Under the pieces are notes generated by a model. That model was not told the DNA's origin. It made no database searches and was given only the letters and a program-made list of their open reading frames with translations. The position numbers were made by a program, and so were the translations under genes. DNA of 32,817 nucleotides, taken from the IMG/VR virus record IMGVR_UViG_3300046459_000408, positions 1 through 32,817 of that record. The stretch is one strand, 5' to 3'. Shown piece by piece: positions 7,453-11,223 of the stretch. The stretch comes from a virus. How positions within the stretch are numbered: position 1 is the stretch's first letter; each line of letters opens with the position of its first letter.

Positions 7453-7651
7453 GCGTCCTCCGTCGCGGATGCATCGTGGTCGCGTGCTCCCACCACAACA
7501 GCCGCAGAAATTCGGTGATCTCGTCGTCGGTGTCGCCGGTCATCGTCGCGTGCCAGTCGCACGCGGTGCACGACGCCTCCGCGCGTCGCACGGGGAGTAA
7601 CCCGTCGCCACGGTCCGCGCCGTCGACAATCACCGCGCGCGGGGTCGTCAT
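7445..7651 (-). CDS. Small putative zinc-finger protein, 68 aa
   Basis: A 68-aa protein with CTACDWH (residues about 28-34) followed by a helix (DDEITEFLRLLWWEHATTMH), giving a CxxCxxH...H arrangement compatible with one zinc site. This style of protein (Cys pair, then an acidic helix with WEH) is frequent in phage early operons and often annotated only as hypothetical. The ATG at 7651 forms ATGA with the stop of the gene that overlaps the cytosine methyltransferase, evidence that the latter is translated. Its own stop overlaps the start of the coiled-coil microprotein by eight bases. Confidence 0.6.
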   Translation of the reverse strand: MTTPRAVIVDGADRGDGLLPVRRAEASCTACDWHATMTGDTDDEITEFLRLLWWEHATTMHPRRRTHE

Positions 7652-8724
7652 CGCGTCACGCCCGTGTCATCGCTCGAGATAGGCGCGGATGAACGCGGCC
7701 GCGACTTGCGGAACGATCGCATTGCCGTACCCGCGCAGTCGTCCCACGCGGGCGGATACCCCATGAGCCAGCGGGAATGTGCCGGGTTCAACTGGCCGCG
7801 CTTTCCCGTCGCTGCAGGGGGTCCACTCGGCATCAGCCCAGTAATTTGATCCTTTAAGTTGACGCAACCGCCGCGCTTTTTCCGATTCTCCAGATTGCCA
7901 GACGCTAGATGATCCATGCAGTTTGGCGTGGCCCACGTCGCCAGCCTCGCCGCATCCGTCATTTGCGCCATCACTTGCAGTGACGTAATCTGCGTGCGGT
8001 TCCCACCCATCCGCTGCTTCATCGCCAGATGCGCTTCCGGCGTCTTGTTGTCGTCGTTCGCGCACGGTGTCGGCCATGTTGCCAGCGGTGCCTGGTCCCG
8101 CAGCTTGTAACGACCATGCGCCGCCGTCATCTGCATCACCCCGCCCTCCGCATCCCCTGCGTTCGGACTGCGCCACGCCGCCAACAACACGTAATCCCGT
8201 AGGTTCCTCGAATGCGCCGCCCCACTCGGACGCAGAATCCCCATCTCCGCGTGCAGCGCATTCTTCTCCTGCCCCCCGCCCGTCGTATCCCCTTCCGCCT
8301 GCGGCGTGGGCCACGAACCAGAGACGCTGTCTGATGTGGAACGCGCCGACACCACCAGCCGGCAGACCACACGCCCCGACGGCGTAACCTTCTTTTTCCA
8401 CGTCATCGCAAACACGGTCGAGCCATCCGTGTCCAATCGCTGCTTCAACCTGCTCACCAAAGACGACTGGAGGCCGGCACTGGGCAATGAGCTGGAACCA
8501 GACAGGCCAAAGGTCGCGGGGATCGTGTCCGCCAGCCTGGGCGCCTGCGGCCGAGAACGGCTGACAGGGACAACTCCCCGTCCAGACAGCGCGGTCGTCG
8601 GGCCATCCGGCCAATCGAAGAGCGTAGGACCAGCCGCCAATCCCAGCGAAGAAGTGACACTGGGCGAAGCCTCGCACGTCGTCGGGCTGAACAAGGGCAA
8701 TTGATCGCTCATCGACTTCGCCAT
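7648..8724 (-). CDS. Overlapping alternative-frame protein within the cytosine methyltransferase gene
   Basis: A 358-aa open frame (ATG at 8724, or at 8712 beginning MSDQLPLFSPTTCEASPS) lies almost wholly inside the methyltransferase gene in a different frame. It has features of a real protein: an N-terminal SPTTCE...LGLAAGPTLFDWPDGPTT segment, a middle SSLVSRLKQRLDTDGSTVFAMTWKKKVTPSGR..., four spaced repeats of the form (L)A.W.(T/S)P...D (SWPTPQAEGD, AWRSPNAGD, TWPTPCANDD, TWATPNCMD), and a C-terminal LNPAHSRWLMGYPPAWDDCAGTAMRS. As I recall, similar sequences accompany phage methyltransferases and also occur outside such overlaps. Its stop is coupled (ATGA) to the next gene. Function unknown; a methyltransferase partner or specificity factor is conceivable. 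Confidence 0.65.
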   Translation of the reverse strand: MAKSMSDQLPLFSPTTCEASPSVTSSLGLAAGPTLFDWPDGPTTALSGRGVVPVSRSRPQAPRLADTIPATFGLSGSSSLPSAGLQSSLVSRLKQRLDTDGSTVFAMTWKKKVTPSGRVVCRLVVSARSTSDSVSGSWPTPQAEGDTTGGGQEKNALHAEMGILRPSGAAHSRNLRDYVLLAAWRSPNAGDAEGGVMQMTAAHGRYKLRDQAPLATWPTPCANDDNKTPEAHLAMKQRMGGNRTQITSLQVMAQMTDAARLATWATPNCMDHLASGNLENRKKRGGCVNLKDQITGLMPSGPPAATGKRGQLNPAHSRWLMGYPPAWDDCAGTAMRSFRKSRPRSSAPISSDDTGVTR

Positions 8725-8803
8725 CAGCGATCAGCCCTTGCGTGATCAATTCGCGCAGCCAGGCGGCGGCGAACGGATCGTGTTCGTTGTAGTACGCCGA
8801 CAT
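7667..8803 (-). CDS. DNA (cytosine-5) methyltransferase
   Basis: A 378-aa C5-cytosine methyltransferase that transfers methyl from AdoMet to cytosine in DNA. Motif I FAGIGGWSYAL is at residues 52-62, motif IV PCQPFS at 79-84 with the catalytic Cys80, the ENV-like motif reads VVFGEQV at 113-119, motif VIII is IRQRLWFVAHA at about 157-167, and motif X GYGNAIVPQVAAAF lies near the C-terminus. Between VIII and X about 180 residues form a low-complexity stretch rich in Gly, Asp and Ala with spaced MADT, HAD and GHA elements, probably the target-recognition region shaped by the overlapping frame. ATG at 8803 directly follows a TAG. Phage enzymes of this type protect against host restriction. Confidence 0.9.
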   Translation of the reverse strand: MSAYYNEHDPFAAAWLRELITQGLIADGEVDERSIALVQPDDVRGFAQCHFFAGIGGWSYALRLAGWPDDRAVWTGSCPCQPFSAAGAQAGGHDPRDLWPVWFQLIAQCRPPVVFGEQVEAAIGHGWLDRVCDDVEKEGYAVGACGLPAGGVGAFHIRQRLWFVAHAAGGRGYDGRGAGEECAARGDGDSASEWGGAFEEPTGLRVVGGVAQSERRGCGGRGDADDGGAWSLQAAGPGTAGNMADTVRERRQQDAGSASGDEAADGWEPHADYVTASDGANDGCGEAGDVGHAKLHGSSSVWQSGESEKARRLRQLKGSNYWADAEWTPCSDGKARPVEPGTFPLAHGVSARVGRLRGYGNAIVPQVAAAFIRAYLER

Positions 8804-8889: not shown

Positions 8890-9915
8890 CTAAAAAGGAA
8901 TACCGTCCTCGTCCGTGCGATCCGGCAACGCATCCGGCGGGGAGAGCGGCAGCGGCCCCTCGTGCGCGTCCTCGAGCCCCGCGAGCTCGTAGCCGAACTT
9001 GCCTTTCGTCGTCCGCAGCAACACCGCTTGTTCGCGGTGCCAGGCGCTCTCGGCCCGCGCCGCGAGCGTCTCGTTGATCGTCGTCAGCCGCGTTTGATTC
9101 GCCGGCCAGCTCGCGTTGCCGGCGACTGTGATCGTCGTGCGGATCACGTTCGGGTTTTTCGTCGGCACCGCGTCGAGTTTGGTGATGAGCACCACGCCGG
9201 TGGCGAGCCGGGCCAGGCGCTCGGCGCTGAACTCGTGCACCTCGACCTGGTCGCGCGCGTCGTTGTCGTCGGGTTGCGGTGTCTCACGTCTCACGGGCTC
9301 CGAGCCGTGAGACGGTGAGACGGCGACAGCAGCCCCCTTGCTGGCGGTTTCGTACTGGTCGGCGATCGCGGTCGCCTCGGTCACGAAGTCCGGCCGCGCC
9401 TGCTCCAACTCTTCCTTCACATACAGCCCGCCAAGCTGTTGCGGGAACGCCTTTCTGAGCGCGAGCGCCTCCGCACATTTGCCGAGCATCACGTGCGGCA
9501 TCCGTTTCCACATCACGTCCCCGCGGCCGTTCGGCCCCGGGTCCGGCACGTACTCGCCATACCTCGCGGTCGCGCTGTAGGCGTAGCGCGTGCCCCGCGT
9601 CAACCGATACACCGTCACCGTCGCCGTGCGCGCGTCCTTGTCGAACACGGGGTCATCGCTGCCGGCCATCTCGCCCGTGTCGTGCGCGCGGCCACGCAGG
9701 AAATCGATACTCGTGATCGGCGTATACCGCCCGCCGCGTTTCGTGAAATGGATCAGACGGTCGAGCGGATGCACGCCGCGGCGTTGACAGTCGAACAGGA
9801 ATAACTCGAGTTCCGCATCGGTGGCGCCGACCGCGACCGTGCGTTTGATCAACTCGAGCTGGTCGCGCGTGACGACCGGCGCGGGAGACGGGGCGAGAGC
9901 GAGGGCGTCAGTCAT
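8890..9915 (-). CDS. bet: Bet/RecT-family single-strand annealing protein with SSB-like tail
   Basis: A 341-aa recombinase of the phage Bet (RecT superfamily) type, which anneals complementary single strands during replication-linked recombination. The core (about 15-175) shows LELIKRTVAVGATDAELELFLFDCQRRGVHPL, a strand region with TVTVYR, and the conserved end WKRMPHVMLGKCAEALALRKAFPQQLGGLYVKEE. The C-terminal 125 residues are an added beta-rich domain (VVLITKLDAVPTK...IRTTITVAG) ending TDEDGIPF, closely like the acidic SSB tail that binds SSB partner proteins. The long frame upstream of 9915 was rejected because it runs through the Dam gene. No exonuclease of the YqaJ/Exo kind is obvious next to it; a PD-(D/E)XK gene lies two genes upstream. 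Confidence 0.85.
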   Translation of the reverse strand: MTDALALAPSPAPVVTRDQLELIKRTVAVGATDAELELFLFDCQRRGVHPLDRLIHFTKRGGRYTPITSIDFLRGRAHDTGEMAGSDDPVFDKDARTATVTVYRLTRGTRYAYSATARYGEYVPDPGPNGRGDVMWKRMPHVMLGKCAEALALRKAFPQQLGGLYVKEELEQARPDFVTEATAIADQYETASKGAAVAVSPSHGSEPVRRETPQPDDNDARDQVEVHEFSAERLARLATGVVLITKLDAVPTKNPNVIRTTITVAGNASWPANQTRLTTINETLAARAESAWHREQAVLLRTTKGKFGYELAGLEDAHEGPLPLSPPDALPDRTDEDGIPF

Positions 9916-9919
9916 AGGT

Positions 9920-10852
9920 CTACTCTCCGAAGTGCACGCCGCGCTCGACGCGCTGATAGATGTCACCGAAACCGTGGAAGTGTTCGTAGAATTTGCCGAG
10001 ATCATCCCCGAGATAGAAGACCACCGAGGGAAACGGCGCGGGATCGTTGTTACCGACGAACGTGAGCCGTCCTTCGATGAAGCAGCAGACATAGTCGCGC
10101 AGCCGACGAAACCATTGCGTGTCGGTCCGTGCGGGCAACAGCGCGAGGGCTTCCGTCACGTCGCCGTGCTCGTACGACTCGCAGAGTTTCGCGCTCCACG
10201 CATCGATCTCGCGGCCGTAGGGGGGGTTCATGTAGACGCGACCACGCCACGTCTGCACCAGGCCGTTGTCGTCGCGCGTGAAGTATTGCGCCGCCTGCAC
10301 GTTCGGTTGTTCGCGCGCATCGCTACACGGATCGAGATCGATGGCGCCGAGGCACGCGGCGACCGCGTCGAGGATCACTCGCGGCGTGTAGTGCTCCGGT
10401 TTTTCACTCGAGAAATGGACGTTGGCGCCTTCGACAGTTCGCACGCTCTCGACGAGCGCCTCGAATTTCGGCGCGGGCATCTTCGCCAGTTTGCGCGCCC
10501 GATCGGCCAGGTTCTTATCGATCCCGGCGTCGGCCAGGGTGGGTTGTGTGGGTTCATTTTTAACCCGCACATTTCGATTGCCTCGTCCACCTGCATTACC
10601 GCGTGCGCCGTGATTCAATCCCACCGACTCACGTTGCGCTTTGATCAACTCGCCGACGCGCCGCTCTGCTTGCATACGAACCGCGATCGCGTCTTTCTCG
10701 AGTTGCCGATTCTTCGCCTGGCGCGCGTACGCCTTCATCGCGATCGCGGCGTTGCGAATCGTCTTGACTTCATCAGTGGACTTCGCCAGCGCGATCGCGC
10801 GGCAGGCGGCGTCGTACCGTTTCAGCGCGACGGGTTCAGCGTGCGTAGCCAT
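9920..10852 (-). CDS. Phage Dam-type DNA N6-adenine methyltransferase with N-terminal helical domain
   Basis: A 310-aa protein in two parts. Residues 1-140 are Lys/Arg/Ala-rich helices (AIALAKSTDEVKTIRNAAIAMKAYARQAKNRQLEKDA and RRVGELIKAQRES), as found before methyltransferase domains in many phage proteins, likely a DNA-binding domain. Residues about 150-310 match the phage Dam family: EHYTPRVILDAVAACLGAIDLDPCS, then VYMNPPYG with the catalytic NPPY at 209-212, and a C-terminal VFYLGDD. It would methylate adenine N6 using AdoMet, protecting phage DNA. The ATG at 10852 lies inside the upstream gene's end (31-base overlap), chosen because the protein then starts MATHAEPVALKRYD; the frame upstream is a shadow. 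Confidence 0.85.
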   Translation of the reverse strand: MATHAEPVALKRYDAACRAIALAKSTDEVKTIRNAAIAMKAYARQAKNRQLEKDAIAVRMQAERRVGELIKAQRESVGLNHGARGNAGGRGNRNVRVKNEPTQPTLADAGIDKNLADRARKLAKMPAPKFEALVESVRTVEGANVHFSSEKPEHYTPRVILDAVAACLGAIDLDPCSDAREQPNVQAAQYFTRDDNGLVQTWRGRVYMNPPYGREIDAWSAKLCESYEHGDVTEALALLPARTDTQWFRRLRDYVCCFIEGRLTFVGNNDPAPFPSVVFYLGDDLGKFYEHFHGFGDIYQRVERGVHFGE

Positions 10853-11223
10853 GCCATGAACTCTTCCAACCGATACACCGCGAACATATGGGTCGGCTCG
10901 CAGTGCTCGCGCATCCACGCCAGCGCACCTTCCCGACACGCGCCCCCGTGAATGACCACGACCGACCGATACGAACACCCGTGGAGATTGAGGTACATGT
11001 AGGGCAACTTCTCATCAACGCTGCCCTCGGAGTTTTGCCACCGCGATTCGATCACGAGCCCGTCTTCGTACTGGGCGCAATTGCGCACGAAGAAATCGAC
11101 GCGATGATCGCCACCGTAAATCGTGCGCCCGACGACATATTGCCGGTCGAACTCGAACCCGGCGATGTCCAAGATCGCGGCGAGCACGTCTTCGGCGTAC
11201 AGTCCGTTTTGGTTCGCCTTCAC
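10822..11223 (-). CDS. PD-(D/E)XK nuclease superfamily protein
   Basis: A 133-aa protein starting with GTG at 11223, in a GTGA overlap with the upstream stop. It shows the phage PD-(D/E)XK layout: a helix (NGLYAEDVLAAILDIAG), strand HRVDFFV with the first acidic residue, strand DGLVIESRWQNSEGSVDEKLPY with the second, and a strand SVVVIHGG. In related families the site is ExK (ECKWQ); here it reads E-S-R, so the usual Lys is Arg, and activity could be reduced. Function may be DNA end processing next to the Bet protein. It overlaps the Dam gene end by 31 bases. Fold assignment is good, activity uncertain. Confidence 0.65.
   Translation of the reverse strand: MKANQNGLYAEDVLAAILDIAGFEFDRQYVVGRTIYGGDHRVDFFVRNCAQYEDGLVIESRWQNSEGSVDEKLPYMYLNLHGCSYRSVVVIHGGACREGALAWMREHCEPTHMFAVYRLEEFMAWLRTLNPSR

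Follow-up and report, generated by a model that had tools for sequence, protein, structure and literature searches.

Two overlapping genes on the minus strand

The window, i.e., the whole stretch of 32,817 nt that was analysed, is a fragment of a tailed-phage genome with genes for a terminase, a portal protein, a major head protein, a tape measure protein, RecT and a Dam-type methylase. On its minus strand, an earlier sequence-only reading had noticed two open reading frames of 378 and 358 codons with a long overlap, and the coordinates confirm this. The longer gene, alpha (7667..8803, 378 aa), is assigned as the catalytic subunit of a C5-cytosine methyltransferase from its matches to PF00145 and phrog_363, its AF2 model and its motifs. 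The shorter gene, beta (7648..8724, 358 aa), is nested in the +1 frame of alpha, and is recognised by its matches to phrog_1008 and phrog_31772 and by the selection acting on it. The dual-coding overlap measures 1,058 nt (7667..8724).

Mapped on the minus strand, alpha contains motif I (HFFAGIGGW, 8630..8656), motif IV with the catalytic Cys (PCQ, 8561..8569), motif VIII (RQRLWF, 8315..8332) and motif X (GNAIVPQ, 7706..7726). A linker between motifs VIII and X (residues 171-307, 7883..8293) is predicted to be disordered, with pLDDT below 50.

Beta starts about 80 nt inside alpha, at the ATG at 8724; the ATG at 8712 is an alternative start. A candidate Shine-Dalgarno sequence, AAGGG (8735..8739), lies 10 nt 5' of the ATG at 8724. 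Spaced W-x-(T/S)-P units, a WLMG-type end and a stop codon fused to the next gene had all been described for this frame, and each is present. The four units are WPTP at residue 138 (8302..8313), WRSP at residue 184 (8164..8175), WPTP at residue 217 (8065..8076) and WATP at residue 264 (7924..7935), and three of the four are housed in the stretch that encodes the alpha linker. Close to the C-terminus lies a motif IX-like segment, RGQLNPAHSRWLMGYPPAWDD (7738..7800), while the beta stop codon (7648-7650) and the start codon of the next gene (ATG, 7651) overlap in ATGA. Directly upstream of the pair are genes for a Dam-type (N6-adenine) methyltransferase (8890-10092) and a RecT-type annealing protein (9920-10978). 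Genes for adenine and cytosine methylation adjoin in this phage.

Methyltransferase motifs in the two polypeptides

Alpha matched Pfam PF00145 (C5 DNA_methylase; 1.6e-11) in a region limited to residues 74-166, and phrog_363 (5e-79) over its whole length. In a classical profile of 12 C5 methyltransferases from bacterial genomes, alpha matched motif I (3e-5), motifs IV-VIII (2e-18) and motif X (0.006). It gave no match to motif IX, and residues 170-320 matched nothing in that profile. The AF2 model of alpha is confident at residues 1-170 and in the C-terminal helix, aligns with M.HhaI (Z 15.6, 166 residues, 2.9 Å), and is disordered at residues 171-307, which is the stretch where the relatives constrain the beta frame. 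Hence, alpha has the motifs I, IV (PCQ), VI, VIII and X and the catalytic fold of a C5 methyltransferase. Neither motif IX nor the small recognition domain was found in its own chain, as judged from the profile and the AF2 disorder, which supports a split enzyme.

The order of the alpha motifs looks rearranged (II, III, I, IV-VIII, X). Residues 1-46 (8666-8803; YYNEHDPFAAAW...DGEVDE), 5' of motif I, align with classical motifs II-III (E 0.012), and residue 1 of the AF2 model aligns to M.HhaI residue 34. Relatives in actinophages and in Paenibacillus phage BN12 apparently retain the usual motif order.

Beta matched phrog_1008 (3.4e-30) in three stretches, the best at profile positions 13-238 of 329; the match extends over most of the family, which makes beta a member of PHROG 1008. 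It also matched phrog_31772 (1e-14). No family was found for beta in Pfam or NCBIfam, and its profile matched no PDB sequence. The AF2 model of beta alone had a mean pLDDT of 57 and was confident only at residues about 80-130 and 310-330; searching this model with Foldseek and VIA-align yielded nothing useful (best Z 3.0, GnsA, 50 residues). The best and sole match of beta in the classical profile was motif IX, GQLNPAHSRWLMGYPPAW versus RRLTPRECARLMGFPDTF, a weak match (E 0.15). When nested betas were compared with the actinophage halves by profile comparison (hhalign), the E-value was 1.3e-7 over the LNPxxxxWLMG segment. Beta looks like the carrier of motif IX, weakly by its direct match and more strongly via these actinophage intermediates. 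Motif X, GN(A/G)(I/V)xPQ, is absent from the window beta. Among relatives, beta measures 207-494 aa and contains 0 to 6 W-x-(T/S/N)-P units, compared to four in the window, and the linker has indels between close relatives. The varying unit number and the indels suggest modular recognition units.

M.EcoHK31I of E. coli (YGGCCR), a relative of M.EaeI, is a two-polypeptide C5 methyltransferase in which the gene for the large subunit also encodes the small one, in a different frame. Likewise, the beta of the window and of its relatives is nested in alpha in another frame. In M.EcoHK31I, the large polypeptide carries motifs I-VIII and X and the small one motif IX (PMC3404938). This layout is similar to that of the window, where alpha has motifs I, IV-VIII and X without motif IX, and where motif IX appears to lie on the second polypeptide (from the direct match and the actinophage comparison above); the likeness is drawn from the motif layout. 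There are also differences. The window enzyme is phage-borne, with no restriction partner identified, and its small subunit almost equals the large one in length. Furthermore, the predicted recognition domain of M.EcoHK31I is in the large subunit (PMC3404938), whereas selection in the epsilon15-type relatives of the window puts recognition probably in beta (see next section).

M.AquI is another two-polypeptide C5 methyltransferase, with the recognition/motif IX half on the second polypeptide (PMC3404938). Two-gene forms also exist in actinophages: in Arthrobacter phage DrYang (gp77/gp78) and Mycobacterium phage Wile (gp75/gp74) the two halves are neighbouring genes. The window resembles M.AquI and these actinophage forms in that the catalytic half comes first and a second polypeptide represents the recognition/motif IX half. 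It differs from them in the position of motif X, which is in alpha, and in the nesting of nearly all of beta; in M.AquI and the DrYang and Wile forms, motif X is on the second half and the overlap is slight. A single chain is found in Mycobacterium phage prophi91-4, where gp24 matches phrog_363 at residues 2-281 and then phrog_1008 at residues 400-518, with an alpha-like segment followed by LPTP units and motifs IX and X.

Nested betas are widespread. We found beta in 221 phage records, and all 80 bacterial-genome loci obtained with the beta profile have an overlapping alpha, always in the +1 relation; no free-standing beta was present among these 80 loci. Judged by record titles, the loci come from Proteobacteria, Planctomycetota, Verrucomicrobia and other MAGs. 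Together, the phage and bacterial records with this arrangement number in the hundreds. Homologues outside overlaps had been mentioned in the sequence-only reading, and this is partly true. Some are separate genes with a slight overlap (DrYang gp78, Wile gp74), and beta-type sequence is also part of a single chain (prophi91-4 gp24); the catalytic half, however, adjoined in every case checked, and beta overlaps alpha throughout the 80 bacterial loci. Arthrobacter phage Jinkies gp3 was considered as a lone beta and rejected, because an unannotated alpha ORF (L371:1449-2325, motifs I-VIII) shares about half a kilobase with gp3, again in the +1 relation. Gp3, annotated as 'DNA methylase', is really the second half of the enzyme.

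We consider it very probable that the product of this locus is a heterodimeric C5-cytosine DNA methyltransferase of the type represented by M.EcoHK31I, with one stretch of DNA coding for both polypeptides. An alternative explanation might be that beta functions separately, as a regulator or moonlighting protein, such as a repressor or anti-restriction factor, which became nested by chance and is no enzyme subunit. In favour of this explanation, beta is large and has an N-terminal stretch without known fold, and for M.EcoHK31I the recognition domain is placed in the large subunit (PMC3404938). Yet, sequence of the beta type makes up the C-terminal portion of single-chain methyltransferases, a sign of a subunit rather than a regulator. 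Moreover, alpha has no motif IX and no folded small domain of its own, and none of the 80 bacterial loci has beta without alpha. A regulatory role is therefore unlikely. The sequence-only reading had proposed either a partner or a regulator of the methyltransferase; the role of partner is strengthened by the occurrence of beta-type sequence within single-chain enzymes and by the constant company of the two partners, whereas the role of regulator found no such backing.

Coding capacity and constraint in the beta frame

In relatives with a beta start 41 nt before motif I, the alpha Arg-Ser codons upstream of beta read AGG-AGT. The Arg codon at this site is AGG in 73 of 113 genes, versus 295 of 3466 Arg codons elsewhere in the same genes, and the Ser codon is AGT in 78 of 113 genes, versus 205 of 2379 elsewhere. 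A Shine-Dalgarno sequence for beta has thereby been kept at sites that are synonymous in alpha. In relatives whose beta starts 30 nt downstream of the window's start, the sequence AAGGAG(T) is conserved.

The start signal bears on a second alternative, in which programmed +1 frameshifting joins the two frames into a single alpha-beta polypeptide. The existence of single-chain forms such as prophi91-4 gp24 speaks for it. The conserved start codon and Shine-Dalgarno site of the nested beta speak against it, however, as does motif X, which is encoded in alpha's frame close to where the overlap stops and requires alpha to be translated through to its last codons. Frameshifting is thus a very unlikely explanation compared to the translation of two separate proteins.

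The decisive evidence that the beta frame is a gene comes from the openness of the +1 frame in the family as a whole. We collected 166 distinct alpha genes with alpha-only queries, which are blind to beta, scanned the frames from motif I to X, and obtained the expected number of stops by synonymous shuffling of alpha. In these genes, we counted 22 stops in the +1 frame where 573 were expected; the count in the +2 frame was 2,019, with 1,792 expected. Nearly all of the 22 stops in the +1 frame were beta's own terminator, directly after WLMGxPxxW. Across the body of beta the frame was open in 163 of the 166 genes, and an internal stop occurred in three genes only (L104, L171 and L182). For the window alpha alone, 1.15% of the synonymous shuffles left the +1 frame stop-free, and hence an open frame in the window by itself is merely mildly unusual. 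More telling for the window is the score of its beta against a beta profile built without the window beta and without its nearest relative: 343 bits, versus 133 ± 16 bits and a maximum of 190 for alpha-preserving codon shuffles (n=2,000). That shuffled frames still reached 133 bits implies that a share of the beta similarity is imposed by alpha.

Selection was investigated by comparing epsilon15-type relatives, arranged as 31 independent pairs. The differences at alpha codon positions 1, 2 and 3 amounted to 1035, 327 and 759, as compared to 46, 31 and 178 in a control, an ordinary downstream gene at the same loci. Alpha position 1 coincides with beta position 3, and therefore the changes land mostly on the wobble position of beta. 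In line with this, dNN/dNS of beta was 0.26 [0.19-0.34], versus 2.5 for the +2-frame control; for the +1 frame of the downstream control gene it was 0.85 [0.71-0.98].

The constraint is handed over from one frame to the other along the gene. Alpha dNN/dSN was 0.04 and beta dNN/dNS 0.57 in the region of motifs I-IV; the values were 0.23 and 0.30 for motifs IV-VIII, 1.04 [0.87-1.20] and 0.23 [0.15-0.32] for the segment from VIII to X, and 0.31 and 0.31 at the C-terminus. Thus, alpha dominates at the 5' side, beta dominates in the middle of the overlap, and both are constrained at the end. These regional estimates come from the epsilon15-type group, because sequence divergence within pairs from other groups was too high for the regions to be tested cleanly. 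In this best-sampled group, selection between motifs VIII and X acts on beta, and alpha is neutral there. The window and its nearest relative (L038) follow this pattern in the linker, where they differed at 11.5%, 1.3% and 0% of positions 1, 2 and 3, respectively.

The view that the beta frame is non-coding, with its conservation a by-product of the alpha protein, high GC and repeats, can draw on the shuffles that stay open and on their 133 bits against the beta profile, but it is refuted, with hardly any probability left, by the scarcity of stops, by a score of 343 bits where shuffles reach at most 190, by an alpha codon position 1 that is more variable than position 3, and by the conserved Shine-Dalgarno codons of beta. 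The proposal that the alternative frame is a true long overlapping gene is consequently upheld by open-frame, selection, start-site and comparative evidence. It also withstood the two refuting checks suggested beforehand: the relatives show no build-up of stops in the beta frame, and they have fewer synonymous changes in alpha than an unconstrained overlap would allow.

Proposed mechanism and wider occurrence

For the two-subunit enzyme, we propose the following mechanism. Alpha would fold as the large catalytic domain, comprising the SAM-binding motif I, the catalytic PCQ, motifs VI-VIII and the motif X helix. Beta would be translated from its own ATG and ribosome-binding site inside alpha, and would supply the motif IX that is missing in alpha and, most likely, the target-recognition region of W-x-T-P units. 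In this way one mRNA would yield two polypeptides that assemble on the DNA, where we infer both the assembly and the need for both chains. The enzyme would probably serve to shield the phage DNA from host restriction.

The constraint on beta alone between motifs VIII and X suggests that target recognition is probably in beta, judging from the selection pattern in the epsilon15-type relatives. On balance, we favour, for this large class of phage and bacterial C5 methyltransferases, a division in which alpha holds the catalytic motifs and beta the recognition region and motif IX, with alpha as a neutral passenger in the latter part.

Two-subunit enzymes of this kind are already known, and the nested arrangement is known from one bacterial enzyme. 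Nor is the beta gene itself unknown, as both PHROG families exist and both frames are annotated in E. coli K1 phages. Window alpha and beta match PHROG 363 and PHROG 1008, and the pair in the K1 phages is named 'C-specific methylase' and 'Mte8-like protein'; the K1H record annotates both frames and mentions similarity to Bcep6B, N15 and e15. The K1 phage annotations assign no subunit role to either frame. Our literature search, which did not extend to the primary M.EcoHK31I papers, found no description of the alpha/beta overlap. Nor did we find any account there of how widely it occurs, of quantitative support for dual coding, of the way in which constraint passes from one frame to the other, or of the range of forms between single chain and nested genes.

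In prokaryotes, long gene overlaps on one strand are seldom accepted; the alpha/beta case is backed across phages and bacteria. The series from a single chain via adjacent genes to nested genes offers a testable account of how the overlap originated. If our interpretation is correct, recognition specificity would evolve within an unannotated reading frame, and many genes labelled 'DNA cytosine methyltransferase' would represent half an enzyme. Most records other than those of the K1 phages annotate one of the two frames only. The recognition half may be the frame without annotation, and predicting specificity or cloning from the annotated frame alone may then mislead.

Several individual loci deserve mention. 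In an E. coli cS100a prophage (L376:1492-2661), a fully open alpha (389 aa) is represented in RefSeq as two incomplete pseudogenes, and the intact beta frame has no RefSeq annotation. In another locus (L084:1795-2797), a deletion fuses the N-terminus of alpha (to WTGS) directly to the C-terminus of beta (PREWDACAGTAM), which destroyed both genes. In three further loci (L020:2400-3626, L021:1352-2578 and L074:2371-4019), alpha and beta apparently exchange frames midway, in a manner resembling a single indel, which reflects either decay or assembly error.
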